Assembly (NCBI GenBank): GCA_030430675.1
Contig: JAUIKU010000013.1
Span: 1-43,559 of the forward strand
DNA: 43,559 nucleotides
Source: Bacteroidia bacterium
Lineage (GTDB): Bacteria; Bacteroidota; Bacteroidia; Cytophagales; Cyclobacteriaceae
Reading direction: 5' to 3'
The notes below the pieces were generated by a model. That model had not been told where the DNA came from, searched no databases, and saw nothing but the letters and a program-made list of their open reading frames with translations. Below are positions 1 through 24,168 of the stretch, in pieces. Numbering within the stretch: the first letter of the stretch is position 1; every line of letters begins with the position of its first letter. Position numbers and translations under genes: made by a program.

Positions 1-365
1 AACAAATCCTCAAACCCCTGGTAATGATCTATGGTTACTGTTTTTTCAATCGACATATTTGCCTGCTTCAGTATTCCTATAATCGTGTGCCTGCGGGCCT
101 TTCCCAATACATCACTGTGCTCCGAAACAGTATGCGACTCCAGGTTAAAATCTGTTAAACTGCCATTGGAAATTTTCAAATACTCGGTAGGCTGAAATTC
201 CTGCATCAGCTGTGAGCCCCCCTGTAGGTTAGACGCCACTTTAGAATGCATTTGGTGATTAAATTCCAATGTTAGGGTCCCATTTTGAATGGTGATCAGC
301 TGGATTTGCTGATTACAGCCGGTTAGGGCCCATAAGATTAGGCCGATTACTTGTAATCTTAACAT
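1..365 (-). CDS. Lipoprotein, N-terminal part of a putative glycoside hydrolase (cut by window edge)
   Basis: Reading leftward from ATG at 365-363 the frame is open to the window edge, about 121 codons. The N-terminus is a lipoprotein signal (hydrophobic run, then LTGC at residues 14-17). The following beta-rich stretch aligns by eye with the short gene at 7149-7640: shared features are an 'IQNGTLTLEF'-like strand, a 'GKARRHTI' strand and an 'IEKTVTIDHYQGF'-like strand. This layout resembles the N-terminal beta-sandwich in front of the TIM barrel of GH36-type enzymes, but the catalytic part is outside the window, so the family is inference. Its ATG shares one base with the TGA of the upstream amidohydrolase, so it is the last visible gene of the leftward operon. 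Confidence 0.7.
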   Translation of the reverse strand, partial: MLRLQVIGLILWALTGCNQQIQLITIQNGTLTLEFNHQMHSKVASNLQGGSQLMQEFQPTEYLKISNGSLTDFNLESHTVSEHSDVLGKARRHTIIGILKQANMSIEKTVTIDHYQGFEDL

Positions 366-1483
366 CAGTCGATAATATTTAAAATATGTCTCGCATTTAA
401 ACTATAGACCTTTTCCAGGGCCTGGTCAGAAAGTCCGATTCCATTAAGCGGCCAATGATAGTTAAATGGCCCGTAAAAATGTTCATCCTGACTTTCCAGT
501 ATTCTGAAAGTTATCTGGTACATTTTTTTATCCATGCCCAGATCAGTTCCGTATACCAGCCGATCCTGATATTTTTCAAAGAACTTTTTGGTATGTCTTG
601 GGACAGGAGCTACTTCTCCGAATCGGGCAGATATGTCTGCCATCAGGTTTGGATAGTTGTCAAATAATTCTCCCAAAATTTGCAGGTCATAGGAGCAATT
701 GGCATAATGACAGGCAATGAAGGTGGTTTCGGGGTTAGCTTTTACCGCATTTTCCAGAATCTTGATCATACCCCTGTGATCAACAATATCCTGTTGATTG
801 TCAAGCCGCCACTTATAAGCATTCATTAATCCATCGTTATTTGCGTCCATGGAAGCGTACATCCATATGGGCTCTGCTACGTGTATGCTTATGGGAATAC
901 CCAGAGCACCGCATTTCTTAATCAGAGGCTGCATTCTCGGATCATCTATATGCATTCCAAATCCACTAGTAGGTTTGGAATAAAACAACCCCTTACCTTT
1001 ATCTCCCAGTTCTCCTACTCCCCGGGCTCCTACCTGGTAACAGCGCTCCAATTCCTTTACTGCTGCCGTTCCAAATCCCGCTTGGTCATACCCGGTATAA
1101 TCAAATCCACAAAAAACAATAAATCTATCCTCATAAGCAGCGTACACACTATATAAAGAATCGAACCGGTTTCCTGTAGCATAAGTTAAAATTACTGTTT
1201 TGTCAATCCCGACCTGGTCCATGGTCTTTATCCAGAGATCCAACTCTTCCTTTGAATTTGCATAGGGATGAGAATGCAGGTCAATGACTGGAAAACGTGC
1301 CTGTTCAATATGAGTTTTGGGAACTTTGTATAGTGAAACTGGGTCATAGTCCGCCAACTTTAGATTTTCTATTCTATCATCCTCTTTCAATTGAAGAACA
1401 GATTCAGCTGGCTGTTTACATGCCATCAGCATAATTATCTGTACTGATATCAAAACAGTGTGCATCTTTGAAGGTTGCTCCAT
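365..1483 (-). CDS. Amidohydrolase-family (amidohydrolase_2-like) lipoprotein
   Basis: A 372-residue TIM-barrel metal-dependent hydrolase. The metal motif HxH is visible as 'VIDLHSHPY' (H70, H72). Later family landmarks are 'ISIHVAEP', 'FIACHYANC', 'NLMADISAR' and 'RLVYGTDLG', the last supplying the usual late Asp. The N-terminus is a lipoprotein signal with lipobox LMAC, so the enzyme is probably periplasmic or on the outer membrane. Met7 is an alternative start that gives a more typical signal. It starts 12 bases after the stop of the deacetylase at 1496-2833, in the same operon. The substrate cannot be read from sequence; in this setting an acyl or lactone hydrolysis on a sugar acid is possible, but that is inference. 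Family confidence is high, substrate unknown. Confidence 0.85.
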   Translation of the reverse strand: MEQPSKMHTVLISVQIIMLMACKQPAESVLQLKEDDRIENLKLADYDPVSLYKVPKTHIEQARFPVIDLHSHPYANSKEELDLWIKTMDQVGIDKTVILTYATGNRFDSLYSVYAAYEDRFIVFCGFDYTGYDQAGFGTAAVKELERCYQVGARGVGELGDKGKGLFYSKPTSGFGMHIDDPRMQPLIKKCGALGIPISIHVAEPIWMYASMDANNDGLMNAYKWRLDNQQDIVDHRGMIKILENAVKANPETTFIACHYANCSYDLQILGELFDNYPNLMADISARFGEVAPVPRHTKKFFEKYQDRLVYGTDLGMDKKMYQITFRILESQDEHFYGPFNYHWPLNGIGLSDQALEKVYSLNARHILNIID

Positions 1484-1495
1484 TGGAATTTGGTT

Positions 1496-2833
1496 TTACT
1501 GCTCAGTCAACAATATTTGCTCCTGATTTGGTTGAACTGAGTTGATTACATACGTTCCTAATGAATCATTTTGCACCCTTAGTTGAATTTGGCCTCCCTC
1601 CATGGAATTACTTGCCACAACGGAGCTCCAGGTTTGCGGCACATAAGTTTTTAAAGTAATCGGAACATCATAAACTTCCGGATCGAGTTTAGAAGAAATA
1701 TCAATTACAATAGTGTTGCCGGTAACTGTGCTGGTTACTTCCGTGCTTTTTTTCTCCCTCAGGTATTTAGTTACATCGGCAAAAGTAGCCACCCACAAAG
1801 AATCCTTCCTGTCCTTGATATAACTGAAATACTCCTGCAGTTCAGCCCCTGTTTTGGGTTCCCACCCAATTCCCTCTACCCCGTGAAAAACCAGCACCAG
1901 CCAAATGTTATCATTTGCAATACCGGTGTCTACCCAGGACTTCATTAACTCCATACTGGTATCCGTATGCGGGCCTCTCTGCCACTGGACGTATTCTTTT
2001 TCTGAGTCGCCAGGATGCCTTTCGTTCGCCCTATTAAGTTCATCAAGGTAGGGTTCCGGCATCCGATTTCGCAGTGCCGGATACACTTTCATCGCATATT
2101 CCATAACCCTGGGGTTTTCTGTTCCGAAAGGGCACTCTATGGAAAAAGTGTACTTCTCACCCAAAAACTTTCGGATGTCGGACTGGCTTTGCTTTAGTTC
2201 ATATAGCAGGTTAACTTCATCCAGCGCTGCTAACCGGGAGTGAGTAATGGAGTGACTGGCAATTTCATGACCTTCAACAGTGTATTCTCGGTATTGTTCC
2301 CAGGTTGTGGTATCTTCGGGATTGTTATCAAATATCACATTATCCACTTCTTTTAATTCACTGTTTCTTACCAAGTTGTAGGCACTATCAATAACAGCGT
2401 AAGCTTCTTTTGTTTTGCCCTCCTCAAAAAGTGAGCCGGCGGTTACGTTAAACACTATGCCGTCCCTTAAACCGGTGTACCCTATTAAAGAGGCCCTTTC
2501 AAAAAAGTTATCCGCATTTGTTTTAACCGAGGCAGTCTCTTGGATTATTTCTTCCTTAGACCTGCCAATAAATTTACCTTTGGCCGATCCTTCCACTTTG
2601 CCGGTAACGATATAGAATGTTCCCGGCAAACCCAGCTTGTTCATTATGGGCCTGGCCACCGTAAAATTATTGATAGTGCCATCGTCATAGGTTATGGAAA
2701 TGGCCGATCGTTTGTTTCCCGGCCAGTTGGTTATAACGGTATGACCAATATTTTGATCCGTTTCACTTTGGCAGGAAATCAGCGTCAACGCCATCCAAAG
2801 TCCAAAAATTTTATCCATCATATGAGTAAACAT
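1496..2833 (-). CDS. NodB-type polysaccharide deacetylase lipoprotein (copy A)
   Basis: 445 residues with lipobox LISC near residue 21, so probably a surface or periplasmic lipoprotein. NodB (carbohydrate esterase 4-like) motifs are visible: TYDDG at residues 48-52 (catalytic base and metal Asp), SHSITH with the two metal His, and a late 'LVFHG'. The usual motif-3 Arg-Pro pair is replaced by 'ECPFG', so catalytic geometry may differ from classic CE4. A C-terminal beta domain of about 90 residues follows the barrel. It is a close paralogue of the gene at 5435-6760, in inverted orientation: 75 of 79 residues match from SAISITYDDG onward, then similarity falls. It lies between GH20 (49-base gap) and the amidohydrolase (12-base gap). 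Likely role: removal of N-acetyl (or O-acetyl) groups from a glycan. Confidence 0.88.
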   Translation of the reverse strand: MFTHMMDKIFGLWMALTLISCQSETDQNIGHTVITNWPGNKRSAISITYDDGTINNFTVARPIMNKLGLPGTFYIVTGKVEGSAKGKFIGRSKEEIIQETASVKTNADNFFERASLIGYTGLRDGIVFNVTAGSLFEEGKTKEAYAVIDSAYNLVRNSELKEVDNVIFDNNPEDTTTWEQYREYTVEGHEIASHSITHSRLAALDEVNLLYELKQSQSDIRKFLGEKYTFSIECPFGTENPRVMEYAMKVYPALRNRMPEPYLDELNRANERHPGDSEKEYVQWQRGPHTDTSMELMKSWVDTGIANDNIWLVLVFHGVEGIGWEPKTGAELQEYFSYIKDRKDSLWVATFADVTKYLREKKSTEVTSTVTGNTIVIDISSKLDPEVYDVPITLKTYVPQTWSSVVASNSMEGGQIQLRVQNDSLGTYVINSVQPNQEQILLTEQ

Positions 2834-2882
2834 TAGTTATTAAAGTTGCGGTTGGCATAATTGCATTCACTCAACTCACATT

Positions 2883-5030
2883 TCAGTTAATTTCCTCCAT
2901 CCATTTTTTGACCATAGGGTGCAAGTGTTCCTCGACCTGAATCATCCAGGTCATATCTTCGCGTTGGCTGGCAAAGTGAAAGTACCGGTCCGGCTTAAAG
3001 CTCTGTGAATATTCTATAAATCTTGTTTTGGCATACACCCTTTCCATATTTTTCCAGGCCCTAGTGAATTCGTCTAAAGCTTTTCTGACCTGGTCAGTTG
3101 CACCGGGAGACCTTTTACTTTCTTCCTGGTCGCACTGTTCAATCGCCAGCAACAAGCGTGGTGCAGTGATATGGAAATGGTAAAGCGCCTCAAGTACCTC
3201 CCAATGATACCTGTTTCTATTTGTTTCCTCCCTCAATCCGGTTAATATACCAGATACGGATTGATGGTCATCCATGATGGTTCTTGCAAGGCGCAACCGG
3301 TCATCATATTGCCTACTCCATTTACCCGGTTCAACGGCATCCGGAAGGTCGATTAGCAGGGTTCTGAAGGAGTCTTCATCCTGATCCATCTTGGTATCAG
3401 GGGTAAACCAATGAGCTAACCCCGGCAAAATCAGTAGGGCATTTTCAAGGTCAACCCGGGAGCCTTGCTTGTTAAGTGACTTAAGCCAGAATAGCTCCGC
3501 ATTCCACAATTGCTGTTTGAATTCCTGATAACCCGGCAAACCCTTACCGAATTCTCGCTGCAGATAAGCCTGGTAGAACTCTTCAACGGTTCTACCATCT
3601 GGTGACCAACTGTATTCAGCTGAGGCAATATATCCCCGCCAGAAGGATTCCATATGGGGAGAATCATCGTCCCATGCTGTGCATAGATTGCCGGAGATTC
3701 CTTTCTGAGCTGCCAACTGTACAAAACTTCGGATGGCAGAGACCACAGTGGTTGACGTGGGGTTGGCTAAAGTTGCGATCATTGTTTTGAGCCCATTATC
3801 CTGATACCAGTCAAGTGCCATTATATTTCCCGGCTCACGGGCCATTCCGTAATTCCACCGCATATAGATACATTCTTCAGGGAAGTCTGCTATCATTTGA
3901 TCCAGAATCGGCCTGCCGGTCTCCCAATCTTCTTCCGCTTTTTTGCGATCCATGTGACCCGTTTCAGTACTTTCGTAAACTCCCGCTGCTTTCAGGGGCA
4001 TATCATCCCAAAAAATGGGTATGCGGCCATTGTCCTTGACGAAATCACTGACCCTGGTAAGCCAATACAGGTTCAAACTCAATAAACCATCTTTTTCAGC
4101 GGTTGGCCGGCAGCGATGGCACAATCCAATATTGCCAATCTCATCACCACCAATATGTAAATACCTGGAACCGGGTGTGGCCTTTATAGCATCCCGGTAT
4201 AGATCAAACAGTACTTCATAAGTCTCCTCATCCATAGGACAGAAAGCCCATCGATTTTCAGGTAACTCGCGAAGATGGGTATATTGATCGTGCTTAAGGA
4301 TAAATGTTGCATGACCCAGGCCCTGAACCAAAGGTGTAATTTCAATGTGCCGACGACGAGCGTAGTCCGTCAAGGCTGCCATCTCGTTGATATTGATGGA
4401 TTCAGGGGCTCCAACTAAAGGTTGTAGCTCATACCTCAGCTTATCTTCAAACTCAAAGATGATCCCATTGATCTTATAGCGAGCCAGCCGGTCGATACTC
4501 TCATAGTATATGTTCATATGATCGAGATGATGCTTGACATCAATGTGTACCGCCCGGTAAGGTAAAGAAGGTTCATCTTTAATCCTGGAGGCCGGTATAG
4601 GTACATTGAAATCACGGGAATCTTCCATTAGCTGTTCCAGAGTTTGGCAACCGTAAAAGATTCCAGCCTCGCCCCTGGCTGCAATTTCTACAGCTCCGTT
4701 TGTTATAGTCAGCAAATATCCTTCAAAAGACTTTGGAAGCTCGCTGGACTCTGCCAACCTTAAGGTAAGTGTTCCGGTAAGCGATTCGTTCGAGGCGGGT
4801 AATAAACTTAGAATATCTCCCATTACCGGACGTTCAAGGTCACCGATTATATGAAGGTTTTCTAACGCTCCAAATGACAGGCCATTGCCAGGCAGTAATT
4901 TAATTTCTTTTGGTTGTGGAACAATAAGAAAGGGTTCTGGTAAGTCTGTTATTTCTGTCATTGCCTTGACTGGCTTACCACTAATTGTTAACAGAATAGC
5001 TGAAGATAGAAGGGTAATTAAGGTTTTCAT
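2883..5030 (-). CDS. GH20 beta-N-acetylhexosaminidase-like enzyme
   Basis: 715 residues with a Sec signal peptide (about residues 1-23). An N-terminal GH20b-like domain (about 30-150) is followed by the GH20 barrel. The family signature HIGGDE lies at residues 292-297, with D296 and E297 as the Asp-Glu pair used in substrate-assisted catalysis on 2-acetamido sugars. 'PYRAVHIDVKHHLDH' and 'ITPLVQGLGHATF' are further GH20 landmarks. It would release terminal GlcNAc or GalNAc from glycans in the periplasm. It is the first gene of the leftward operon and is followed 49 bases later by the deacetylase. The C-terminal 250 residues are helical and longer than a minimal GH20. The family call is firm; the exact linkage is not visible. 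Confidence 0.9.
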   Translation of the reverse strand: MKTLITLLSSAILLTISGKPVKAMTEITDLPEPFLIVPQPKEIKLLPGNGLSFGALENLHIIGDLERPVMGDILSLLPASNESLTGTLTLRLAESSELPKSFEGYLLTITNGAVEIAARGEAGIFYGCQTLEQLMEDSRDFNVPIPASRIKDEPSLPYRAVHIDVKHHLDHMNIYYESIDRLARYKINGIIFEFEDKLRYELQPLVGAPESININEMAALTDYARRRHIEITPLVQGLGHATFILKHDQYTHLRELPENRWAFCPMDEETYEVLFDLYRDAIKATPGSRYLHIGGDEIGNIGLCHRCRPTAEKDGLLSLNLYWLTRVSDFVKDNGRIPIFWDDMPLKAAGVYESTETGHMDRKKAEEDWETGRPILDQMIADFPEECIYMRWNYGMAREPGNIMALDWYQDNGLKTMIATLANPTSTTVVSAIRSFVQLAAQKGISGNLCTAWDDDSPHMESFWRGYIASAEYSWSPDGRTVEEFYQAYLQREFGKGLPGYQEFKQQLWNAELFWLKSLNKQGSRVDLENALLILPGLAHWFTPDTKMDQDEDSFRTLLIDLPDAVEPGKWSRQYDDRLRLARTIMDDHQSVSGILTGLREETNRNRYHWEVLEALYHFHITAPRLLLAIEQCDQEESKRSPGATDQVRKALDEFTRAWKNMERVYAKTRFIEYSQSFKPDRYFHFASQREDMTWMIQVEEHLHPMVKKWMEEIN

Positions 5031-5244
5031 GTAATCTGTAATGAGTTCAAATCTATCTTTTTTCGAGAGATGTATTGCTCATGAATTTCTTTCGTATTAT
5101 AATGTTTTTTATATTTTATTATTTATAATATCTAAATTTAAAAAGTATTTATAAGTTTTTAAATAGATATTTACAATTATTTGAAAGTTTGGTATTTTTA
5201 ATTCTTAAAGATTCGCCTCTGAAAGATCAAGACAAGAGTATTAG

Positions 5245-5403
5245 AAATCCACTGCCCTGCATACTATAGGCATTGGGCTTAAGGCTTCTAATTCCTACGG
5301 TTTTGGTAAGAGTTATGGCTTCTTCCGGGGCAATCTTTATGGCAATAGGAATTTGTATTATAGTCAATACGAGTTGGGAATATACGGACCTAATTGGAGG
5401 TGA
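5245..5403 (+). pseudogene. C-terminal remnant of an unidentified protein
   Basis: Inside the 404-base gap between two divergent genes (5031-5434) lies a frame open from a TAG at 5242 to a TGA at 5401, with no usable start. The roughly 50 residues are rich in Gly, Tyr, Asn and Phe ('SYGFGKSYGFFRGNLYGN', then 'YYSQYELGIYGPNW'). This regular aromatic/Gly pattern looks like the C-terminal end of a secreted or outer-surface beta protein rather than random translation of an AT-rich gap. I do not recognise the family. The rest of the gap (5031-5244) is AT-rich and holds nothing else I can support. Confidence 0.45.
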
Positions 5404-5434
5404 GTTACCATTTAAAATTTATAACAACTAAGAA

Positions 5435-6760
5435 TTGAGAAATAAAGCACTTCATTTCGGATTAATCCTGTTATCTATTTCTTGTTCCATCACAAAAGAG
5501 GAAAATGTTGGAAAGTCTATTATTACCAATTGGCAGGGAGACAAACAATCGGCCATTTCCATTACCTATGATGATGGCACTATCAATCAATTTACGGTGG
5601 CCAGGCCCATAATGAACAAGCTGGGTTTACCGGGAACATTTTATATCGTCACTGGCAAAGTGGAAGAATCGGCTAAGGGTAAGTTTATCGGCAGGCCAAA
5701 GGAAGAAATAATCCAGGAGACTGCATCAGTTAAAACCAACGCGGATAACTTTTTTGAAAGGGCCTCGTTGATTGCCTACACCGGTATGAAAGATGCCGTG
5801 CAATACAACTTTGATGCACACGTACTTTTCGATGCCGGTAAAACCACCGAGGCTTATGAAGTGATAGACGAGGCATACCAGCAAGTGAGAAATAGCAAGT
5901 TAAGTAAAGTGGACAACATGGTTTTTGACAATAATCCGGAAGATACTACCACCTGGGAGCAGTACAAACTTTACACCACCGAGGGGCATGAGATAGGCAG
6001 TCATACTGTGACCCACTCCGGATTATCGGTATTGGATGAAGCCAACTTACTGTTCGAGTTAGAACAAAGCAAATCGGATATTGAGAAATTTTTGGGCAAA
6101 AAATACACCTTTTCCATGGACTGTGGTTTTAGTCCCAGGAGCGATCGGGTAAGAGATTATGTACATCAAGTATATCCCGCCCTGAGAAGCCATATGTTGG
6201 AACCTTATATTGATGAACTCGATGATCTCGATGAGCGAGATCCCGGAAAATCTTCCAAAGAATACGTCAAATGGCAAAGAAATCCTCTTACCGATGTCAG
6301 TATGGAAGTAATGAAGTCTTGGGTAGACACCAGTATTGCACATGATAACATCTGGTTAGTACTGGTGTTTCACGGAGTTGATGGGATAGGCTGGGAACCC
6401 CGCACCGGAGCTGATTTGGAAGCGTATTTCAGCTATATAAAAGAAAAGCAGGATCAGGTATGGGTGGCTACTTTCGCCGATGCCACCAAATATGTCAGGG
6501 AAAGAAAAAACGCAAAAGTAGGTAGTACTCTAAAAGACGATGTAATTGTAGTGAATTTTTCATCTGACCTTGATCCTGAAGTTTATGATGTTCCTGTTAC
6601 CGTGAAAACTTATGTGCCAGGGACATGGAGAAGTGCCACACTAACCAAAAAACAGGATGATCAACTCACACTTACAATTCAAAAGGATGCTTTGGGTTCG
6701 TATGTACTTTATTCCGTTTTACCAGGTGAAGCTGAAATGGTTCTTTCTAAGAAAGTTTAA
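5435..6760 (+). CDS. NodB-type polysaccharide deacetylase lipoprotein (copy B)
   Basis: 441 residues, paralogue of the gene at 1496-2833. TYDDG, SHTVTH and 'LVFHG' motifs are present; the motif-3 region reads 'DCGFS', again without the usual Arg. The lipobox is SISC. The start must be TTG at 5435, because an in-frame TAA sits two codons upstream (5429) and no ATG lies between it and the signal peptide. Rare TTG use directly behind a gene remnant suggests that the 5' region was rearranged. It heads a rightward gene string with short gaps (29 bases to the next gene). Likely role: deacetylation of an amino-sugar glycan, complementing the exo-glucosaminidase downstream. Family confidence is high, substrate inferred. 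Confidence 0.87.
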   Translation: MRNKALHFGLILLSISCSITKEENVGKSIITNWQGDKQSAISITYDDGTINQFTVARPIMNKLGLPGTFYIVTGKVEESAKGKFIGRPKEEIIQETASVKTNADNFFERASLIAYTGMKDAVQYNFDAHVLFDAGKTTEAYEVIDEAYQQVRNSKLSKVDNMVFDNNPEDTTTWEQYKLYTTEGHEIGSHTVTHSGLSVLDEANLLFELEQSKSDIEKFLGKKYTFSMDCGFSPRSDRVRDYVHQVYPALRSHMLEPYIDELDDLDERDPGKSSKEYVKWQRNPLTDVSMEVMKSWVDTSIAHDNIWLVLVFHGVDGIGWEPRTGADLEAYFSYIKEKQDQVWVATFADATKYVRERKNAKVGSTLKDDVIVVNFSSDLDPEVYDVPVTVKTYVPGTWRSATLTKKQDDQLTLTIQKDALGSYVLYSVLPGEAEMVLSKKV

Positions 6761-6789
6761 TTGACCGTTAGTATGTACATTTTCGGTGT

Positions 6790-7152
6790 ATGAAAATTTC
6801 GAATATTATGGTTCATTTCAAATTATTATTAATTACCATGGCACTGATTGGGTTCAGTTGCAATAATGAAATAAAGGAGAAATCTAATGATCTGACTGAA
6901 GATTCCCAGGCGGAGGCATTGACAGACATCAGCTCCACTCCACCCAAAGAATGGGTAGAACAACGTGTTGCAAGTGCACAAAATCGACTATCTGCAACAC
7001 GATCTGGACGACTTCTTTGGAGATCAATTGAAACCCATGGGGGCCTTAGCCGATGGTTTTCCAACGGTCCCTTATATTTCCGGTTTAATTACCAAAATCC
7101 ACTTGGTATGGCTGACATATTTATCAGAAAAATCGAACGAAAAAGTAAATGA
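6790..7152 (+). CDS. Short lipoprotein, probably internally deleted or truncated
   Basis: 120 residues with lipobox GFSC near residue 24. The stretch 'EWVEQRVASAQNRLSAT' followed by 'THGGLSRWFSNGPLYFRF' resembles the opening of a larger Bacteroidota lipoprotein family (DUF6503-like) whose members are usually more than twice as long. Here the protein ends about 20 residues after that block with a basic tail (RKIERKSK). Its stop overlaps the next start by ATGA, so the 3' junction looks like a normal operon junction. An internal deletion is therefore more likely than a simple 3' loss. Family assignment is from memory of the pattern and is moderate at best. Confidence 0.5.
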   Translation: MKISNIMVHFKLLLITMALIGFSCNNEIKEKSNDLTEDSQAEALTDISSTPPKEWVEQRVASAQNRLSATRSGRLLWRSIETHGGLSRWFSNGPLYFRFNYQNPLGMADIFIRKIERKSK

Positions 7153-7640
7153 GATCTCATACTTTATTATACGGCTTACTAATTCTTTGTTTGTCTTTCC
7201 AGTGTGGTAACAAGGATCACTCACCTACATTTTTCAGAATTCAAGGGGAGGATATGCATTTTGAAAATGAGAACATTCATCTGGTCTTTGACGAGTTGAT
7301 GTACTGTAAAGTTGAACTAAAAGCTGAAGGGTTGGTCCAGTCAATGAATCATTCTGGTGAAGTAGGGCCAGATGCAATTCCTGCTCATTTTATTAAACTG
7401 GGTGGTGTTATCTATAAAGATTTTAAGACCAACGCCCATGAAATTGAAAGCTTTGAGGAAGCTGAGTACGGCACAGGGAAGCGACTCACTTTGGAGGGAA
7501 GTGATCGTGGAGTCGAACGCTCCCTGGTAGCCGAAATGTATGATCAATACCCTGATGTTGCTCAGAGCTGGTGTACATATACCAATTGCACTGGTAAGGA
7601 ATTAAAAATTAACGAAGTGTATTATAATTACTATCTATGA
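7149..7640 (+). CDS. Stub of a glycoside hydrolase N-terminal domain (lipoprotein)
   Basis: 163 residues. A signal (LSFQCGN, lipobox-like) is followed by one beta-sandwich-like region ending in 'SWCTYTNCTGKELKINEVYY'. The layout matches the gene cut by the window start (1-365) and resembles the domain that precedes the catalytic barrel in GH36-type enzymes; no barrel follows. It overlaps the previous gene by ATGA and the next gene (7637) by ATGA. It is either a decayed enzyme or a kept stand-alone domain. The two clean four-base overlaps argue that translation coupling is preserved. No catalytic residues can be assigned. Confidence 0.5.
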   Translation: MRSHTLLYGLLILCLSFQCGNKDHSPTFFRIQGEDMHFENENIHLVFDELMYCKVELKAEGLVQSMNHSGEVGPDAIPAHFIKLGGVIYKDFKTNAHEIESFEEAEYGTGKRLTLEGSDRGVERSLVAEMYDQYPDVAQSWCTYTNCTGKELKINEVYYNYYL

Positions 7641-10627: not shown

Positions 10628-10651
10628 CAATAAGACATTAATATAAAACTG

Positions 10652-12196
10652 ATGATTAAATACATTGTGGTTTTTACATTGTTGTTTCTCAACGGATGTA
10701 GTGAAGATGTTAATTCTGATAACCCCACTGATATTCCCCTCATAAAAGATGGTTATCCGAAGTTGGCAATGTGGTGGCCGGACACCCGTAAACAATCCCG
10801 GGATGAACTGAAACGATATGACTGGATTGGTTTCGGGGTGTGGGATGATTTCTCAGTAATTGAAAAGCTGAAGACAATTAATCCGGATCAGAAACATTTT
10901 ATGGATTATTCTATTACTGAAACTTCCTGGTCGCACTGGCAGAGTAATACTGAAGTAATGAAAATGATACCATCAGAATGGTTCTTGACTCAACTTGGCA
11001 CTTTATTGGCCCTGCCCATGGATGCTGATCAGAATAAGGTGTTTGTTGAGGATTTGTTTGATGGGCAAGGAAATACCTTGTTTGAAATTGGTGACGAAAT
11101 TACCTGCGAACACGAAACTATGAAAGTAACAGGTATCAATTCGCAAGAAAATATCCTCACAGTTGAAAGGGGTTTTGTCAGGGAAGCTGCTTCCCATTTA
11201 AAGGGTGCTAGGATTGCACCTCATATTACATTTTGGCCAAAAACATGGGTGATGAATATGTCATTACTTTGTCCAAAAGTGGATATTGGAGATGGGAACG
11301 GTCCTCAAACCTGGGTTGGGTTCGCAACCCGGTATTTTAAGGTGGATCAAATGGACCTTTGGGACGGATTTATTGTTGACCGCATTGAAGATGATCAAAG
11401 CTGGCTGGTCCCTGAGTGGTGTCGCAGTATAGATCCTGATTTTTCAAATCAGACAATTACTGACGGTTACCAAGCTTTTGACGCCGCCTGGAACCAAGGA
11501 TGTGTTGGCTTCCTGGAATTTCTGCGTAACGAGTTATCCGGAAAAGTGCTTATTTCTAATACTTCAGGAGCCTATTATGAATCTCTTAATGGCGCCATTT
11601 ATGAAGGTTACCCTGGTAATTGGAACAACCTTGTACCCGAGACATATCAGGACTGGGCCGATCGTACGTTGAATGAAAAAGGCTATATTAATGTTTCAAA
11701 ATCAGGATATATGCCGAACTATACGCTCGCTGAAACCTATGAAGATGAAGATATGCCGAACGATGATGGAAGCTATATCAATCCTTATGATCAGCCTGGC
11801 TTTACTCCGGATTATCAGAAAATGAGATATGGGCTCACTACTGCTTTGTTGGGCGACGGATATTTTTCATATGAGATAAATACAGCGGGACATGGCGGCC
11901 TGGGATTGATGTGGTTCGACGAATATGATAATGCAGGAAAACAAAGGGGTTATTTGGGTAAACCTAAAGAAGATGCCCATCGGGTAATGGATGCTGGTGA
12001 CGGTTCCGTATGGCGACGGGAATTTGATAATGGCACAGTACTTTGTAATCCCACCAATACTGAAGTTATGGTTGAGCTGGGATCTACTTATTGGTTTATT
12101 GACGGATTGCAGTCGCCGGATATTAACACAGGTAAATCTGTCAACCAGATCGACCTGGGACCGAGAGACGGTAGAATTCTTTTAAACTCCCATTAA
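10652..12196 (+). CDS. GHL15-like putative glycoside hydrolase lipoprotein
   Basis: 514 residues with lipobox LNGC near residue 16. The sequence starts with 'YPKLAMWWPDTRKQSRDELK', continues through 'WDGFIVDRIEDDQSW' (acidic candidates), 'VLISNTSGAYY' and 'GAIYEGYPGNW', and ends in 'LCNPTNTEV', a small beta domain. This order resembles the hypothetical glycosyl hydrolase group GHL15 (TIM barrels related to GH114-like proteins), in which few members have a known substrate. It is the last gene of the rightward operon, 24 bases after GH2. A weak hairpin lies between it and the convergent GH97 gene. Fold-level call is moderate; the substrate is unknown, and an amino-sugar polymer is only suggested by context. 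Confidence 0.62.
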   Translation: MIKYIVVFTLLFLNGCSEDVNSDNPTDIPLIKDGYPKLAMWWPDTRKQSRDELKRYDWIGFGVWDDFSVIEKLKTINPDQKHFMDYSITETSWSHWQSNTEVMKMIPSEWFLTQLGTLLALPMDADQNKVFVEDLFDGQGNTLFEIGDEITCEHETMKVTGINSQENILTVERGFVREAASHLKGARIAPHITFWPKTWVMNMSLLCPKVDIGDGNGPQTWVGFATRYFKVDQMDLWDGFIVDRIEDDQSWLVPEWCRSIDPDFSNQTITDGYQAFDAAWNQGCVGFLEFLRNELSGKVLISNTSGAYYESLNGAIYEGYPGNWNNLVPETYQDWADRTLNEKGYINVSKSGYMPNYTLAETYEDEDMPNDDGSYINPYDQPGFTPDYQKMRYGLTTALLGDGYFSYEINTAGHGGLGLMWFDEYDNAGKQRGYLGKPKEDAHRVMDAGDGSVWRREFDNGTVLCNPTNTEVMVELGSTYWFIDGLQSPDINTGKSVNQIDLGPRDGRILLNSH

Positions 12197-12243
12197 GAGA
12201 CGACAGGCTGTCTAGCAAGCATTCTCTAGGGAGGAGGACCGGT

Positions 12244-12270
12244 CAAAAATACCTGTCGGGATATTTTATC
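12244..12270. terminator. Weak bidirectional hairpin between convergent genes
   Basis: Between the stops at 12196 and 12311 lies an imperfect inverted repeat, AAAATACC ... GGGATATTTT, with flanking A and T runs that could serve both strands. The stem has a bulge, so strength is doubtful. Confidence 0.35.
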
Positions 12271-12310
12271 ATACCTCCTGCAAATAAGTTAAGTAGATTG
12301 ATAGCAATTA

Positions 12311-14269
12311 CTAATGCTTAGTTACCCGTGCAACCCAACCTCCACCAGAAGCCAGGTGTATGGGAATTTTATGCTGATTGGTAACCGTTGATTTGATCAT
12401 TTTGTAATCACTGGCAAATCCTTCCGCGTTAACCCCGTCTTGATAGTATTGTATATCATATGAACCGGGATCGAGAAAACTAAGGTCTAAGGTTAAGTCG
12501 CGGGCAGTCCAATCGGTCATGGCACCAATATACCACTCGTCTCCGCTTCTCCGAGCCAATAATACATAGTCTCCAAACTTTGCCTCCAAAACCTTAATAT
12601 CATCCCAAACGGTGGGTACTACCGAAATAAATTCCATACACTCCTCTTCTTTCAGATAGTGACTGGGAGTGTCTGCTAATACTTGCAGTGGACTCTCATA
12701 GACAACAAACATTGCTAATTGATGGCAGCGGGTTCCAAGAGACATAGGCCGGTCAAATATAGGCCTATAGTTTGGCTCCTGGGCGTTACGCATGGCTCCT
12801 GGCGAATAATCCATAGGTCCGGCCAGCATCCTGGTAAAAGGAATGATCAAGTCATTTTCAGGGTTAGTGGATTTTCCCTCCCATTTATGCTGTTCCTGTC
12901 CGCTAACTCCTTCGGTGGTGATCACATTGGGGTAGGCGCGTCTGATCCCGGTAGGCTTGTAGGATGAGTGAAAGTCAACCAGAAGCTTGCGACTGGCAGC
13001 AGCCCGGGCGACTTTTTGGTAGTATTGGACCATCCATTGATCATCTCGCTGCATTTGATCCACTTTGATCCCTTTAATACCCCATTTTTGGAATTGGTCT
13101 AAGGCAGGTTCCATATTATCATTCAGGGCCTTCCAGGTTACCCCCAATATCAATCCCACATTTTTCTCACGGGCATACGCCGCAAGAGATTCCATATCAA
13201 TCGATTCCAAAGGATTTATTAAGTCGTTGGTGCTGATATCGTACCATCCAATTTCCAAAACCGCATAGGTCAGGCCGAATCGAGCAGCAAAATCAATATA
13301 GTATTCATAGGTCTCGGTATTGATACCACTCTCAAACTCCACACCGTAAACGTTGTTGGCATTGTACCAGTCCCATGTTACTTTTCCAGGCTTAATCCAG
13401 TCGGTTTGTGTTAATTTCAAGGGTGTTGATAGTTTGAATACCAGTTCATTTTCCAACAATTCACCGTCGTTATCTGAAATGGCCATAAGGCGCCAGGGAA
13501 AGTCACGCCTGCCAGAGGTACGTGCTAGGTATTCTTCTCTTTCAACCGGAATTACATCTTTATCATTGGGGATTGAATACGACTTGGGGTATCTGGGAAA
13601 TATGGCTTGTAAAGCATTTTCACCATTACCTGATTTAAGATAAAATCCGGGATAATCCCAAAGGTCCGATTCTGTAATCACCAATTTGTGGCCTTTTTCA
13701 GGGGCGAGCAACACAGGTAGGCAGCTAAATTGATCATCCTTGAATTCACTTATCATTTGAACAACATGGGGGCGTTCATAGTGAGTAAAGTATCCATCGG
13801 CGATTGGGAATGCTCCCTGGTGGTCCTGGGGGAAGTTGTATTTAACTAATTCATTATTGATTGTTACCTGATCATTTAAGGAGGTTTTTATGCGGTAGGC
13901 CACACCGTCGTCATAGGCCCTGAAGATCACTGAATACCCTCCACGAAATTGAATGGTCAACTCGTTACAGCGGTCGCGGACTTCGGATCGTTTAACCTGT
14001 ATGACCTGGGGAATGATTTGATCCACTGATCTTTTCATTGACCTAACGGGTCGGGGATTCACTCCCAACTCCGTGTTGTCTATGGTTATGGATATCGGTG
14101 ATTTCTCCAAAATCAATATCTCCCGGTGCCATACCTGGTACCAAATCCGGTCATCTGTGTAAACATGTATCTTGTTTATACCGTCTGGAGAATCCAACAC
14201 ATATTCACGGGCTGATAACACTAACTGATTGGTTAGTAAAACCAGCATCAACAATTGCAGTCTTTTCAT
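12311..14269 (-). CDS. GH97 family glycosidase, retaining alpha-galactosidase-like
   Basis: 652 residues with a Sec signal peptide (about 1-20). The N-terminal beta-sandwich opens with 'YVLDSPDGINKI', typical of GH97; the barrel follows from about residue 290, then a C-terminal beta domain. 'GIKVDQM' gives Asp404 and 'TTEGVSGQE' gives Glu453. These match the nucleophile (D415) and acid/base (E470) spacing of the retaining GH97b alpha-galactosidase branch rather than the inverting SusB branch. It is the last gene of a leftward group headed by the acetyltransferase at 16535-17641, with 85 bases to the beta-helix protein. It would act in the periplasm on alpha-linked side chains. Family is firm, branch moderate. 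Confidence 0.85.
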   Translation of the reverse strand: MKRLQLLMLVLLTNQLVLSAREYVLDSPDGINKIHVYTDDRIWYQVWHREILILEKSPISITIDNTELGVNPRPVRSMKRSVDQIIPQVIQVKRSEVRDRCNELTIQFRGGYSVIFRAYDDGVAYRIKTSLNDQVTINNELVKYNFPQDHQGAFPIADGYFTHYERPHVVQMISEFKDDQFSCLPVLLAPEKGHKLVITESDLWDYPGFYLKSGNGENALQAIFPRYPKSYSIPNDKDVIPVEREEYLARTSGRRDFPWRLMAISDNDGELLENELVFKLSTPLKLTQTDWIKPGKVTWDWYNANNVYGVEFESGINTETYEYYIDFAARFGLTYAVLEIGWYDISTNDLINPLESIDMESLAAYAREKNVGLILGVTWKALNDNMEPALDQFQKWGIKGIKVDQMQRDDQWMVQYYQKVARAAASRKLLVDFHSSYKPTGIRRAYPNVITTEGVSGQEQHKWEGKSTNPENDLIIPFTRMLAGPMDYSPGAMRNAQEPNYRPIFDRPMSLGTRCHQLAMFVVYESPLQVLADTPSHYLKEEECMEFISVVPTVWDDIKVLEAKFGDYVLLARRSGDEWYIGAMTDWTARDLTLDLSFLDPGSYDIQYYQDGVNAEGFASDYKMIKSTVTNQHKIPIHLASGGGWVARVTKH

Positions 14270-14354
14270 TTTCTATCTACCAAATATCTCACTCTGGTGT
14301 GAAGCTTTTTTAAAGTAACTTCGTTCAATAACATCTTGTGGTTGTTCTATATAA

Positions 14355-16490
14355 CTAAAAAGTACTCCAATTGCGATGATAACAACCCAATACCATAGTG
14401 CGAGGAACTTCATTAGTGTTCCATGGGTCATCGACTATAAAATAGGAGTCATCAGGTGCATGGTGATAAATTGAATTAACCACCTCAATGTTGTTGCTGT
14501 TACCGGTAATTTCAAAATAATTCTGTTTATAGGACCCGAAGTGGGCAAAGTCCATCACATTTGTAATAAAGATATTACTGCTGTTATTGATGGCAGCATA
14601 GGGTTGTGAGGTCTCGGTTTTGCCACCGAATATCCTCACATTCGAGGCGTTGTCAATTTCCAACATGGGAAAGGTAGAAACTGGCCGTTCACTACCTCCA
14701 CGTTCAAGATTAAGACCGTAAAACCACAAAGGCTGAGTGGTCCCGCTAACTTTTACTTTACGGTGGTTACTATTGCGAGGTGTGGTTCCTTTCTCGTCCT
14801 GGTAATTGAAAATACGCCCTCCACCATTTCCTGATATTTGTAATCTTACGTAGTCATGCTCGTAGACCAGCCAGTCAATGTCGCACCACAAATTGCGAAT
14901 GATGGAATTGGCTCCCACCCGCCAGTGTACACTTCCACGATAATCTTCATCTCCTGCATTGGTGGTAATGTCCAGCAGGTATGTAGTAGCATTGGCGCTG
15001 TTTACGGTCTCGATTAACCATGATGGTCTTTGTGGTGTCCAGCCATATTTGAGAATTGTACCTGATTTTCCCCGGCCCGGACAACCGATTAAAATGGTGT
15101 TTTCTCTAAGTGTAATGGGAGAGGATAGAATAAATGTTCCCTTGGGGAGGCACACCTTGGCGTTGGTATCAATGGCCTGCTGAATCCCCGCAGCCGTGGC
15201 AGAGGTTACCAAAACAGCATCGGGATCTTCAAACGAGGGAGTGTCGTTCCAAATATGTTTTGACACTAAGTCGGCCGGAGGCTCACTTACACCGGCTATA
15301 TCAACCATATCACTATTGGTTTGAGTTGCGGTAATTGCATCGTAGTGCGCTGCTGTCATGGGTACTCCCCTTCTATTAGTTTTGGTACCCTTGTACACAT
15401 AGTTATATCGTTTTACCCGGACCCAATCATTGGTATTGTCAAAACCTGTTATGTTTCCATCTCCTTGGTTATCAATTATTGTTTCAGCGCTTTTTACATA
15501 GACATCACGCATAGAAATCAAGCCCTGGCCAGGATTAGAGATCCCTTTGTTGTCCGAAGATTGAGTAGTGAATTCAATTTTACAATCAATCAATGACAGG
15601 GGGAAAATCTCCACCGAGGAGTTGGTGGTATTCAGTGTCATCGCAGTGCCTTTAGCCTGAACTATAGTTGATCCGACAATGGTGATACCACCCCAGCCAC
15701 TTAACACTAATGCCCCTACGGATTGATTGGTAAAGGAGCACCCGGTGATCGTGTTTTGATTGGCTGCCGGCATACCCCAGGCCACTTCTTCATCGGAATC
15801 AGGTAGGTAAATGCCAAATTTACCGCCATCAATACTAATATTTGCGGTAAGACAATTGGCGCCTCCAATACCTGTCATTCCGGCAAATCCATCGCGAACT
15901 TTGATACTGATATCTTCCACGTAACAGTATTGTGCAGTGGACCAGAATATACCCACCGCATTTTTGTTGCCTATTCCAAGGTCAACATTTACCCCGCGTA
16001 TCCCCCCTTCCATTACCCAACCCGTGTCATAGGGCTTGCCCGGATTATAGTGGCGGCTGGGTAAGGATTGATCGGTCATATAATGAAATACCGCCAGCGG
16101 GTTAACCCCGTTAAACGCCGGAGAATTGTCGGCAACCACTATAGTAGGGCGGTTGATGGCGGAGCCTACAATGTTTACCGGCATATTGGGGTAGTTGTTG
16201 GTTTTGATCAAAGGATCGTGGGTCATTTCACAATAGATCTGGGAAGACACCTTATAGGTGCCACTGGGGATGAATAAAGTTTGACGGGCATCTCTGGATG
16301 CATTTACCGCATCCTGAAGTTTCCTGGTAACATCTTTAGCGCCATTCATCTCATCTGCAGTCAACGCCTGGTTTTTTGCAAAGTCGTACATGCCCATTTG
16401 AGTGGGGGTTATTTGACTATAGCTAGTTTGACACACTTGTATCAAAACTGCAGATGCCACTAAAAACACGCAGTAGCGTTTGAATCTCAT
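14355..16490 (-). CDS. Secreted twin right-handed beta-helix protein (pectate lyase 3 / GH55-like)
   Basis: About 711 residues from the Met at 16490, which gives a normal signal peptide ending in 'TSYSQ'; an upstream Met at 16520 is open but adds an unlikely leader. Two copies of the entry motif of Pectate_lyase_3 domains are visible: 'KLQDAVNASRDARQTLFIPSG' shortened here to 'LQDAVNASRDARQTLFIP', and later 'GIQQAIDTNAKVCLPKGTF'. Between and after them are the short Asn/Gly/Ile coils of a beta-helix. Two helices in one chain is the architecture of GH55-type enzymes and of some polysaccharide lyases. I cannot point to catalytic residues. It is second in a leftward group, 44 bases after the acetyltransferase stop. 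Confidence 0.7.
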   Translation of the reverse strand: MRFKRYCVFLVASAVLIQVCQTSYSQITPTQMGMYDFAKNQALTADEMNGAKDVTRKLQDAVNASRDARQTLFIPSGTYKVSSQIYCEMTHDPLIKTNNYPNMPVNIVGSAINRPTIVVADNSPAFNGVNPLAVFHYMTDQSLPSRHYNPGKPYDTGWVMEGGIRGVNVDLGIGNKNAVGIFWSTAQYCYVEDISIKVRDGFAGMTGIGGANCLTANISIDGGKFGIYLPDSDEEVAWGMPAANQNTITGCSFTNQSVGALVLSGWGGITIVGSTIVQAKGTAMTLNTTNSSVEIFPLSLIDCKIEFTTQSSDNKGISNPGQGLISMRDVYVKSAETIIDNQGDGNITGFDNTNDWVRVKRYNYVYKGTKTNRRGVPMTAAHYDAITATQTNSDMVDIAGVSEPPADLVSKHIWNDTPSFEDPDAVLVTSATAAGIQQAIDTNAKVCLPKGTFILSSPITLRENTILIGCPGRGKSGTILKYGWTPQRPSWLIETVNSANATTYLLDITTNAGDEDYRGSVHWRVGANSIIRNLWCDIDWLVYEHDYVRLQISGNGGGRIFNYQDEKGTTPRNSNHRKVKVSGTTQPLWFYGLNLERGGSERPVSTFPMLEIDNASNVRIFGGKTETSQPYAAINNSSNIFITNVMDFAHFGSYKQNYFEITGNSNNIEVVNSIYHHAPDDSYFIVDDPWNTNEVPRTMVLGCYHRNWSTF

Positions 16491-16534
16491 ACCTATTAAT
16501 GGCCAGAGGATATAAAACATATGTTTCTATATTT

Positions 16535-17641
16535 TTAGATTTTAATAAAGATCTTTCGTCTATAAAGCCAGTAGCACAAATACCAAAGAAGTAACAGGAC
16601 AATCAAATTGCTCAAAATGTTGACCATTGACTCACCTACCAATCCGGTGAACGGCATCATAAAAGGATGAATTAGGTTCATGATAAACCCGGTGCCTCCC
16701 AAGTGCGCAAACAAGTATATGAACAATGGATTCATTCCCACAATCACGAAAAACAATGTCCACTTCCGGTATCTTTTAATGTCGATCAACCAATAACAGA
16801 ATGCCAGTGATAACACGGTCCAGCCACCGCTCACTATTACAAATGAAGAAGTACATATCCGTTTGATGATAGGGGTAACGGTAGATAGCCCATATCCGGC
16901 CACCAATCCAATCAAACCCGCTGTTAACAATATGCGGAATTTACGCATAGGTGAACGATCACTCATTAGTAGTTGCGCCGAGAGAACCCCCCAAATAGTA
17001 TGAGCAGTAGTAGGGATAGCATTGAATGCAACCCAATGCCCCGTCAAGTTTGCTCCCCCATATTGCAGGTCCAGCCAGGTACCAAAATTTTCGTTGGGCA
17101 CAAACGGATGATTAAATCCTTCTACTGGAAATCCCCGATAGAGTGCCTCAGTTATGGCCAGTAAAAGAAAAGAGAAAGCCAGTTGGGTAACGGTGGATTT
17201 ATTCATTACCAGGAATGCCAGTACATAAGTAACTGATAGTTGAGCCAACACATTCTGAAAGAAAAAAACGATTTTTCCTTCGCCAATACAGGTTATGACC
17301 CAACCAATCAGCAGCAGCAGAAATGCCCTTTGCCATACATGCTTGCGGATCTGAGTTTCATCGATTCCCTTACTGATCCTGTTTGAATAGGAGTACGGTA
17401 TTGCAACCCCAACAATAAACATAAAGTAAGGTTGTATCAGATCATAGTATCGAAGCCCTTCCCATGGAACATGCTGAAACTGTATTCCGATACCATATAG
17501 TATTGTTCCTTTCAGCTCGGGGATAGTAAGTGAAGTGAATAAATCCGTAAATGAGGCAATTAGCAAAAACATGGTTAAACCCCTAAAAAAATCAAGTGAA
17601 AACAATCGATCACTCAGGGAAGCATTTTCGGTAGAGGACAT
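16535..17641 (-). CDS. HGSNAT/DUF5009-like membrane acyltransferase
   Basis: 368 residues with about ten hydrophobic segments. The opening 'RLFSLDFFRGLTMFLLI' and 'HVPWEGLRYYDLIQPYFMF' with its HxxWxG motif are landmarks of the heparan-alpha-glucosaminide N-acetyltransferase / DUF5009 group. These inner-membrane proteins are thought to move an acetyl group from cytoplasmic acetyl-CoA to a glucosamine on the outer face. That fits a locus with deacetylases, GH20 and an exo-glucosaminidase: glucosamine ends could be acetylated again before uptake or cleavage. It is the first gene of the leftward group with the beta-helix protein and GH97. Family call is good; the actual acceptor is inference. 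Confidence 0.78.
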   Translation of the reverse strand: MSSTENASLSDRLFSLDFFRGLTMFLLIASFTDLFTSLTIPELKGTILYGIGIQFQHVPWEGLRYYDLIQPYFMFIVGVAIPYSYSNRISKGIDETQIRKHVWQRAFLLLLIGWVITCIGEGKIVFFFQNVLAQLSVTYVLAFLVMNKSTVTQLAFSFLLLAITEALYRGFPVEGFNHPFVPNENFGTWLDLQYGGANLTGHWVAFNAIPTTAHTIWGVLSAQLLMSDRSPMRKFRILLTAGLIGLVAGYGLSTVTPIIKRICTSSFVIVSGGWTVLSLAFCYWLIDIKRYRKWTLFFVIVGMNPLFIYLFAHLGGTGFIMNLIHPFMMPFTGLVGESMVNILSNLIVLLLLWYLCYWLYRRKIFIKI

Positions 17642-23136: not shown

Positions 23137-24168
23137 TTACAGCCGCTCTAAATCTACCTCCCTAATGGTAAACAACTCTAAAGCCCTACTTGAATCATGT
23201 TGATCCACCCGCTCTGCAGAATATATCACCGGCAATGAAGCCATATTTACGATATCAGCGGTAGCCAAAATTTGCTTATTTAATTGCGTACAGCACTTTT
23301 CCACTAAAGCTGTGGTATACAGTGGCTCCCCATGAAATACGATCTGGCTTTTTACATCTCCAATCTCTCCAAGCACAACCTCTCCACTATGGAAACTGGC
23401 AGTAAACTCGGGCACAAAGTGGTACTTATTTAGGTATTTTTCTTTTAATCGATCGATCTCATTTCTCATATAAAAATAGGTTCTTACCCAGTTGGAATTC
23501 TTCAGCCCCTTCTTTAGCGTCCAGGTCACCACGACTTCATCTCCTACTTAGCGGTAGATCTCACCTTTGGTAGCCAGAATGCATTTTGTGATATCATGAA
23601 AAAAGTCATTCAGGAAATTATAATACTTCATATCACCCATTGCTTCCGCGATTGACGTGGAAGATTTCAGATCTACGAACATAAATATCCTTTGTTCTCT
23701 ACGAGGCTTATGGTACTTCCCGGTAATAAAATGAAACAACACCATGCGTCCCATTTTTCTACTCATCTCCTGAGTAAAAATGATCACTCCAATACCTAAC
23801 AGCGAGTAAAACAATATGATATTGAAATCTTCTTTGTATAAAAAATTCTGAAAACGGGATCCGTACAAATAGTCTACCAAGCCTTCTCCATAATAAAAAC
23901 TCTCATTAACCCCTTTTATCAGCACTATCAATACCACCATTAATAGTAAGTAGCATAGGGACTTCAACATTACAATCGTTCTAAACCCAATCCTCCGTGT
24001 TTCCCAGTTAAATGCGTACCGTTCAAGGATTGCTACCAAAACCCCTCCTATTAATCCAATAGATACACCATTAAAGATTTTAATTGGCTCGTCGAAGCCA
24101 TCGGCAAATAAGGGGTACAGAAACCCCAAGCATATTCCAATTGACCCTATAATAAGTATGTTATTCAT
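23137..24168 (-). pseudogene. Membrane class III adenylate/guanylate cyclase, interrupted by an in-frame TAA
   Basis: One frame runs from ATG at 24168 (which overlaps the stop of the upstream cyclase by 8 bases) to the stop at 23137, about 343 codons, broken only by TAA at 23548-23550. Before the stop there are four hydrophobic segments and the catalytic entry 'MFVDLKSSTSIAE' with the metal Asp (residue 166). After it the frame resumes VGDEVVVTWT, where relatives have a Tyr in place of the stop codon. The last part ends 'LFTIREVDLERL'. So the catalytic residues are kept, but the chain is split within the cyclase domain. An ATG at 23532 could start a short C-terminal piece. A simple nonsense mutation is most likely; a sequencing error is possible. 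Confidence 0.8.

Follow-up and report, generated by a model that had tools for sequence, protein, structure and literature searches.

A glycan locus at a contig edge in a Cyclobacteriaceae genome, possibly directed at a galactosamine-rich substrate

We analysed a 43,559-bp stretch of DNA from a Bacteroidia bacterium of the Cyclobacteriaceae (the window; contig JAUIKU010000013.1 of assembly GCA_030430675.1), which is the entire contig C299 of its genome, G000, an assembly of 4.96 Mb in 368 contigs. The first 17.6 kb carry a set of glycan-degradation genes that quite possibly form part of a locus of the polysaccharide utilization locus (PUL) type, cut by the contig end and serving a galactosamine-rich glycan, perhaps one mixed in galactosamine and glucosamine and bearing alpha-galactose. 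An earlier note on this DNA had listed an amidohydrolase, two NodB deacetylases, GH20, GH2, GHL15, GH97, a beta-helix protein and an HGSNAT-like protein, and searches of profile and structure databases bear that gene content out. Gene identities, active-site residues, module synteny with one species, the association in relatives of Aga-type genes with GH36 and the amidohydrolase, and two gene stumps were all established in this analysis. The cut gene, the amidohydrolase, one CE4 deacetylase and GH20 lie on the minus strand, followed on the plus strand by the second CE4 gene, two short genes, GH2 and GHL15, and again on the minus strand by GH97, the beta-helix gene and the HGSNAT-like gene:

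3..365 (-): N-terminal 121 aa of a GH36 (galactosaminidase-type) lipoprotein; 3' end open at the contig end
365..1483 (-): amidohydrolase (Amidohydro_2); PF04909, 52.2 bits; N-terminus lipobox-like by eye
1496..2833 (-): nodB1, CE4 polysaccharide deacetylase 1; PF01522 (Polysacc_deac_1), 63.8 bits; YDD, HSITH and PFG intact
2883..5030 (-): GH20 beta-N-acetylhexosaminidase; PF00728 and PF02838 (GH20b); GGDE catalytic pair
5435..6760 (+): nodB2, CE4 polysaccharide deacetylase 2; PF01522, 58.4 bits; 65% identical to nodB1; P-F/Y-G lost
6790..7152 (+): truncated remnant of a 324-aa lipoprotein gene; 74% DNA identity to L118:1924-2195, then a break
7149..7640 (+): truncated remnant of a GH36-type gene (163 of at least 581 aa); 85% DNA identity to L118:3796-4314, with a break at the GH2 start
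7637..10627 (+): GH2, exo-beta-D-glucosaminidase type (GH2_16-like); Ig_GlcNase domain, CsxA match, Ser-Asp motif
10652..12196 (+): GHL15-like hypothetical glycoside hydrolase; PF14885, 53.5 bits; lipoprotein-like N-terminus by eye
12311..14269 (-): GH97, retaining alpha-galactosidase type; PF10566; PDB 3a24, an alpha-galactosidase, 2.6e-161
14355..16520 (-): secreted beta-helix protein; PF12708 in two stretches; RHGA/pectate-lyase-like
16535..17641 (-): HGSNAT-like transmembrane acyltransferase, for which a NagX-like role is proposed; phmmer to human HGSNAT (PDB), E 2.4e-8

Both ends of the window are contig ends, and the left one cuts a GH36-type gene whose 121 residues align at 34% with the start of a full-length GH36 in the relative G046. 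To this homolog a GH36 piece at the end of contig C312 (L134:5307-6977) aligns at 60%, 15 nt beyond the edge part, and in the relative G034 an amidohydrolase (61%) lies 5 bp before a GH36 (62%), in the same order as in the window. Because the edge and C312 parts fit one homolog and G034 keeps the amidohydrolase-GH36 order, C312 probably continues the locus to the left of the window. A test for an exact overlap between the ends of C312 and the window found none (1 base), and among six GH36 loci compared the edge part was matched at E 1e-3 by one (L137). Beyond its GH36, C312 carries a DUF4185-like gene (E 1.1e-5, below the cut-off) and a beta-helix gene and then, oriented the other way, a transketolase pair and a dehydrogenase whose frames are broken; a literature search on DUF4185 and galactosamine deacetylase gave nothing useful. 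The broken frame at 1535-2566 of C312 (L134) belongs to a zinc dehydrogenase of which G001 has a full-length copy.

Against solved structures, the C312 GH36 scores 224-228 bits with the Flavonifractor galactosaminidase (FpGalNase) and 55 bits with the next, an alpha-galactosidase; the 228-bit entry is labelled alpha-galactosidase, yet in the alignments its sequence is identical to that of the galactosaminidase. The Flavonifractor enzyme works together with an N-acetylgalactosamine (GalNAc) deacetylase (PMC11762096), and seven of the nine active-site residues named there align identically in the C312 GH36 if, by our own reckoning, the chain numbering differs from that of the paper by 43 throughout. 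For Asp463 to align, a two-residue gap must be shifted, and Tyr464 is not conserved. GH36 occurs in seven of 98 genomes (G000 itself, G001, G034, G046, G048, G036 and G059), and the same set of 98 relatives, own genome included, underlies the counts given below for GH2, GH20, HGSNAT-like, beta-helix and GHL15 genes.

In four of the five GH36-bearing genomes besides G000 and G001 (G034, G046, G048 and G036), an AgaS-type gene, a PfkB kinase and a DeoR-type regulator lie near GH36, joined in three of the four by an aldolase; the distance from GH36 to AgaS is ~12 kb in G046 and ~9 kb in G036, and the amidohydrolase accompanies GH36 and the Aga-type genes in G034 and G046. The order in G034 is SusC-SusD-AgaR-AgaS-GatZ-PfkB-aldolase-amidohydrolase-GH36, with a regulator scoring 297.8, above the AgaR equivalog cut-off of 260, and a GatZ/KbaZ that is clear in Pfam and weak in NCBIfam, and these genes may form a tagatose-type route. 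The scan for AgaS and DeoR covered 88 sequences (the window, overlapping pieces and loci of at least 4 kb) and returned one further AgaS, in L097, a G001 GH20 locus that also encodes a PIG-L deacetylase and an amidohydrolase-like protein, as well as a DeoR homolog in L122. Amidohydrolase orthologs are 61% identical in G034 (adjoining GH36), 56% in G046, 60% in G022 (adjoining an HGSNAT-like gene) and 75% in G001.

The remaining glycosidases can be placed by their active sites and nearest structures. For GH20, which matches 11 of the 98 genomes including its own at E 1e-20, the best PDB match over the whole protein is 6q63 (69.8 bits) and the best over a single stretch is 8qk1 (58.3 bits, in the catalytic part), and by its sequence the catalytic part resembles subfamily 1 (HEX-2/HEXD-like); 8qk1 is HEX-2 of Trichuris suis, which is reported to prefer beta-N-acetylgalactosaminides (PMC11308363). 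The closest solved structure to GH2 is the exo-glucosaminidase CsxA (1.8e-111; next protein, 8.2e-27), with which the catalytic Asp and the nucleophile Glu align, the Asp being Ala in the aligned CsxA entry 2vzu. The exo-glucosaminidase signature claimed earlier is indeed there: the acid/base site reads ASD at the aligned position, where 13 homologs have SD in 4, NE in 8 and neither in 1, while the nucleophile Glu stands in 14 of 14 aligned rows. Ser-Asp in place of Asn-Glu is described as strictly conserved in the glucosaminidase subfamily GH2_16 (PMC12243196, 2025), and a Glu of this GH2 aligns with a CsxA Glu that may be the one replacing the conserved His in GH2_16. GH97 scores 730 bits against NCBIfam NF053844, under the cut-off of 800, and its nearest solved structures are still alpha-galactosidases.

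In the HGSNAT-like protein, His57 aligns with the acetyl-carrying His297 of HGSNAT, and the His is kept in 12 of 12 aligned rows. In two of the 12 settings examined for such genes (G003 and G022) the gene adjoins GH109, with the amidohydrolase (60%) also present in G022, and in G008 a glucosamine-6-phosphate isomerase-type gene (L086) lies beside it; the remaining settings were judged by eye, single genes excepted. A study that groups DUF5009 proteins with HGSNAT notes none with a tested function (PMC12423673, 2025). Another HGSNAT-like paralog of the own genome directly follows a galactokinase gene (G000:C257, L096, 1888-4168). In G050 (L088), an HGSNAT-like gene lies downstream of SusD (and, by eye, SusC) and adjoins PNGase F-like and sulfatase-looking genes, possibly an N-glycan locus.

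The following course can be hypothesized; we infer in it how the contigs join, in which order the steps run, what the substrate is and what the deacetylases and the acyltransferase do. Oligosaccharides would enter by a SusC/SusD pair located off this contig, and the CE4 deacetylases would expose free amines on terminal N-acetylhexosamines. The left-edge GH36 would remove alpha-galactosamine and GH2 beta-glucosamine, while GH20 would trim beta-N-acetylhexosamine and GH97 alpha-galactose; the HGSNAT-like protein would then re-acetylate the freed hexosamine with cytoplasmic acetyl-CoA, feeding an N-acetylhexosamine route. The earlier note had proposed such a deacetylate, trim and re-acetylate sequence, which fits the residues (Ser-Asp of GH2_16, Asp/His/His of CE4, His of HGSNAT) and has published precedents in parts. 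That environmental Bacteroidota run a periplasmic deacetylate-cleave-reacetylate cycle, in which CE4 or the Aga-linked amidohydrolase would deacetylate terminal GalNAc or N-acetylglucosamine, a GH36 of the FpGalNase type and GH2_16 would release galactosamine and glucosamine and the HGSNAT-like protein would re-acetylate them for uptake, the whole with ties to SusC/D and an Aga regulon, strikes us as unlikely at present.

As to which amino sugar is the substrate, the earlier note had argued for glucosamine, which would be half of the answer at most. GH36, its AgaR/AgaS-type neighbours in relatives, the GH109 neighbours in two HGSNAT-like settings and the HEX-2-like GH20 favour galactosamine or GalNAc. 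The GH2_16 signature favours glucosamine for one enzyme, and the isomerase-type neighbour in G008 leaves glucosamine open too.

The earlier note had also held that the lack of SusC/D and sulfatase sets the locus apart, and this claim fails. Neither SusC/D nor sulfatase was found in the window by Pfam scans of 31 frames or by tblastn, for which four SusD sequences, three of SusC and one sulfatase served as queries, and no homolog of SusC, SusD or sulfatase was found on C312 with the tblastn queries. GH18, looked for by Pfam scans only, was absent from the same 31 window frames, as was any chitinase. Three large frames right of 40 kb lie outside the scanned set, and their translations look by eye transporter-, stress protein- and regulator-like. 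Because both ends of the window are contig ends and in G001 two of the modules lie beside SusC/SusD or the start of a SusC, a third being near a sulfatase, the absence is no distinguishing property of the locus; an assembly in fragments would produce it. The own genome has nine SusD matches elsewhere: the SusD nearest to that of G001 (62%) sits with SusC on the 4.8-kb contig C1, and a second SusC/SusD pair (SusD 58-60%) lies on C223, a contig that also has a GH20-like gene.

G001, a genome of the same genus and the nearest relative, has the modules spread over four separate contigs. GH20-CE4-amidohydrolase and GH97-beta-helix-HGSNAT are each kept together there at 72-77% DNA identity, the former on a contig that also carries a sulfatase and a GH123-like gene, and GHL15 lies near GH109, an amidohydrolase paralog and the start of a SusC. 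The transketolase-dehydrogenase flank of C312 matches G001 contig C73 at 69% DNA identity over 2.57 kb, and after the flank C73 continues with an AraC regulator, ASPIC/UnbV, HGSNAT-like, beta-helix, GH97, NHL and aminotransferase-like genes, SusD and SusC. The GHL15 region (window 10593-12202 against L084) stands at 89.7% DNA identity to G001, vs 72-77% for the other modules, which may reflect strong constraint or recent exchange.

Comparison with G001 also changes the reading of 6790-7152 and 7149-7640, which the earlier note had overlooked as truncated genes and which are N-terminal stumps. G001 contig C274 (L118) has one gene for 324 aa, one for 286 aa and a GH36-type gene for 581 aa or more; of the first the window keeps the start and of the GH36-type gene the initial 162 residues, and it lacks ~1.6 kb between the stumps as well as the GH36-type remainder up to the GH2 start. 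Apart from a paralog on C312 at 31% identity, no other copy of this remainder was found in the own genome. At each of the two breaks there is an ATGA overlap. Two genuine small proteins at 6790-7640 were considered and rejected, the frames ending where G001 runs into longer genes. The stumps suggest decay, a misassembly being possible too. At L118 (G001:C274) 1-1582, a GH31 gene points away from the genes that correspond in full length to the stumps, and a 49% homolog of it follows the GH36 operon of G034.

A number of results weigh against the reading of the locus as a galactosamine PUL. The full gene set is in none of the genomes searched, and the check that the earlier note had proposed, co-occurrence in relatives, gives a mixed answer, being confined to modules in one sister species. 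AgaS, GH109 and GH123 homologs were found neither in the window nor on C312, the rest of the genome not having been searched for Aga genes; the 20 kb examined with the GH36 of G059 contain no Aga genes; and in G034 the AgaS match scores 375 against a cut-off of 529, the kinase falls under every specific cut-off and the aldolase passes no other than the general ketose-bisphosphate cut-off. The activity described for GH2_16 is that of glucosaminidases and not of galactosaminidases. The window GH2 has no close relative: it matches 11 of the 98 genomes including its own at E 1e-30, with 30-37% identity over the matched stretches, and in the 13 GH2 loci examined no CE4, GH20 or HGSNAT homolog was found. 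The HGSNAT-like gene is in 54 of the 98 genomes, own included (E 1e-10), in varied settings, and its protein has no Pfam match up to E 10, HGSNAT_cat and DUF5009 included; because no Pfam family model matched, it is called HGSNAT-like only. Among 19 aligned CE4 rows (nodB1, nodB2 and 17 homologs), nodB2 is the sole one of the 19 to have lost P-F/Y-G, and together with its two neighbour genes it looks decayed. Near the Aga-less GH36 of G059, at 5 kb, L148 has at 6377-7105 a gene that by eye is like the glucosamine-6-phosphate isomerase-type gene of L086.

An alternative is that independent, partly decaying glycan genes lie side by side without forming one pathway, the deacetylases serving housekeeping or the cell surface and having nothing to do with the glycosidases, an account that we regard as somewhat unlikely. 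The CE4 motifs comprise the catalytic Asp and the metal-binding Asp/His/His, and YDD and H-x3-H are kept in nodB1 and nodB2, with [YF]DD and H-x3-H in the 17 homologs. CE4 was matched in 10 of 194 members of the order, own genome included (E 1e-40, another draw than the 98-genome set), and 17 CE4 loci outside the window were compared: one on an own 4.2-kb contig, those of nine relatives, six further loci among the matches listed, and the G001 locus by synteny. In 16 of them (three under 7 kb) no GH20, GHL15, GH97, beta-helix or HGSNAT homolog was found, one has a weak amidohydrolase and one a weak GH2-family similarity, and the neighbours, judged by eye from reading frames, are mostly unrelated-looking. 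The separation of CE4 from these genes in 16 of the 17 loci speaks for this alternative. The patchy record of other members fits it as well: GHL15 is in two of the 98 genomes (E 1e-10; G001 copy 89% identical) and the beta-helix gene in two (E 1e-20), own genome included in each, and GH2 is in none of four other same-genus genomes. So do the two stumps, the broken C312 dehydrogenase, the motif loss in nodB2 and the scatter of the G001 modules over four contigs. Against this stand the two modules that stay joined in G001 at the identities given above, where G001 is the only one of the 17 loci with CE4 alongside GH20 and amidohydrolase, and the amidohydrolase-GH36 adjacency that recurs in G034. 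The own genome holds a third CE4 copy at G000:C39 (L038) 174-1499, 82% identical to nodB1 and near the contig start.

A locus for chitosan or a glucosamine heteroglycan, with CE4 and GH2 acting on chains of N-acetylglucosamine and glucosamine, is quite unlikely in our view: it would account for the Ser-Asp motif, for CsxA as the nearest solved relative of GH2, and for the isomerase-type gene of G008, and NagX genes are often in chitin operons (PMC9007349), yet no chitinase was present among the scanned frames, and GH36, the Aga-linked amidohydrolase, GH109 and the HEX-2-like GH20 point to galactosamine. The deacetylation step could also be assigned otherwise, with CE4 removing O-acetyl groups and the periplasmic amidohydrolase as the true N-deacetylase partner of GH36. 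In G034 and G046 the partner of GH36 and the Aga-type genes is the amidohydrolase, not CE4; a PDB search with it gave no match, and we know of no Amidohydro_2 enzyme shown to deacetylate N-acetylhexosamines. This assignment seems improbable to us. Least credible is an amino-sugar route truly independent of SusC/D and distinct from ordinary PULs, for which one could cite that none was found on the 43.6-kb contig or C312, since both ends are contig ends, the genome has nine SusD matches, and its own SusC/SusD contig carries a SusD 62% identical to the module-adjoining SusD of G001. A galactosamine-directed PUL cut by the contig end is our best reading.

The window holds further features outside these modules, and two proteins within them yielded little in structural terms. 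A tyrosine integrase with Phage_int_SAM_5 and Arm-DNA-bind_5 domains lies at 20614-21837, 3 kb from the locus; as an importer of the locus it is unsupported, no integrase homolog having matched in the module-bearing G001 contigs. At 23548-25258 a guanylate-cyclase-type gene and its overlapping neighbour share 35% identity over 199 residues, likely a partial duplication. The beta-helix protein has no significant PDB match, and structure prediction from two-sequence alignments was of low confidence for it and for the GHL15 protein (mean pLDDT 37.9 and 31.1, respectively).

To our knowledge, the galactosaminidase strategy is known from one gut bacterium only, and it is used for blood-group conversion. 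If the galactosamine reading is true, other Bacteroidota would employ the strategy when they feed on glycans in the ordinary way, the GH36 genes of C312, G034 and G046 would be new galactosaminidase candidates with a clear operon context, and HGSNAT-like bacterial proteins would gain a galactosamine context. The case also cautions against reading biology into a SusC/D pair that is missing from a fragmented genome. Literature searches on NagX, glucosaminidase- and galactosaminidase-deacetylase, HGSNAT/DUF5009 and Bacteroides Aga did not turn up this combination in titles or the starts of abstracts among the papers listed, which is weak evidence that it is new to the literature.

Among known systems, the Bacteroides PUL BT4240-50 for mucin GalNAc is likewise GalNAc-directed and has GH109, GH2 and a major facilitator superfamily (MFS) transporter, but uses a GalNAc kinase route, and within the main text of that report 'deacetyl' and 'acetyltransferase' each occur 0 times (PMC11992087). 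The exo-beta-D-glucosaminidases of the CsxA type (GH2_16) share the Ser-Asp motif, the nucleophile and the Ig_GlcNase domain with the window GH2, which differs as a distant relative, a Bacteroidota protein, with a putative substrate. NagX is, like the window protein, an HGSNAT-like membrane protein with an acetyl-carrying His, proposed to acetylate periplasmic hexosamine (PMC9007349), whereas the window protein is without a Pfam match and sits beside GH97 and the beta-helix gene, and its counterparts in two relatives sit beside GH109, not chitin genes. The pair FpGalNAcDeAc/FpGalNase of Flavonifractor plautii offers the same logic of a deacetylase and a GH36 galactosaminidase (PMC11762096). 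FpGalNase is far closer to the C312 GH36 than any other solved GH36. FpGalNAcDeAc has a fold other than CE4, in contrast to the candidate deacetylases here, which are CE4 (NodB) proteins with an activity predicted from sequence. The deacetylate-cleave-reacetylate chemistry that the locus would perform is known in parts from NagX (PMC9007349) and from the deacetylase-galactosaminidase pair (PMC11762096).

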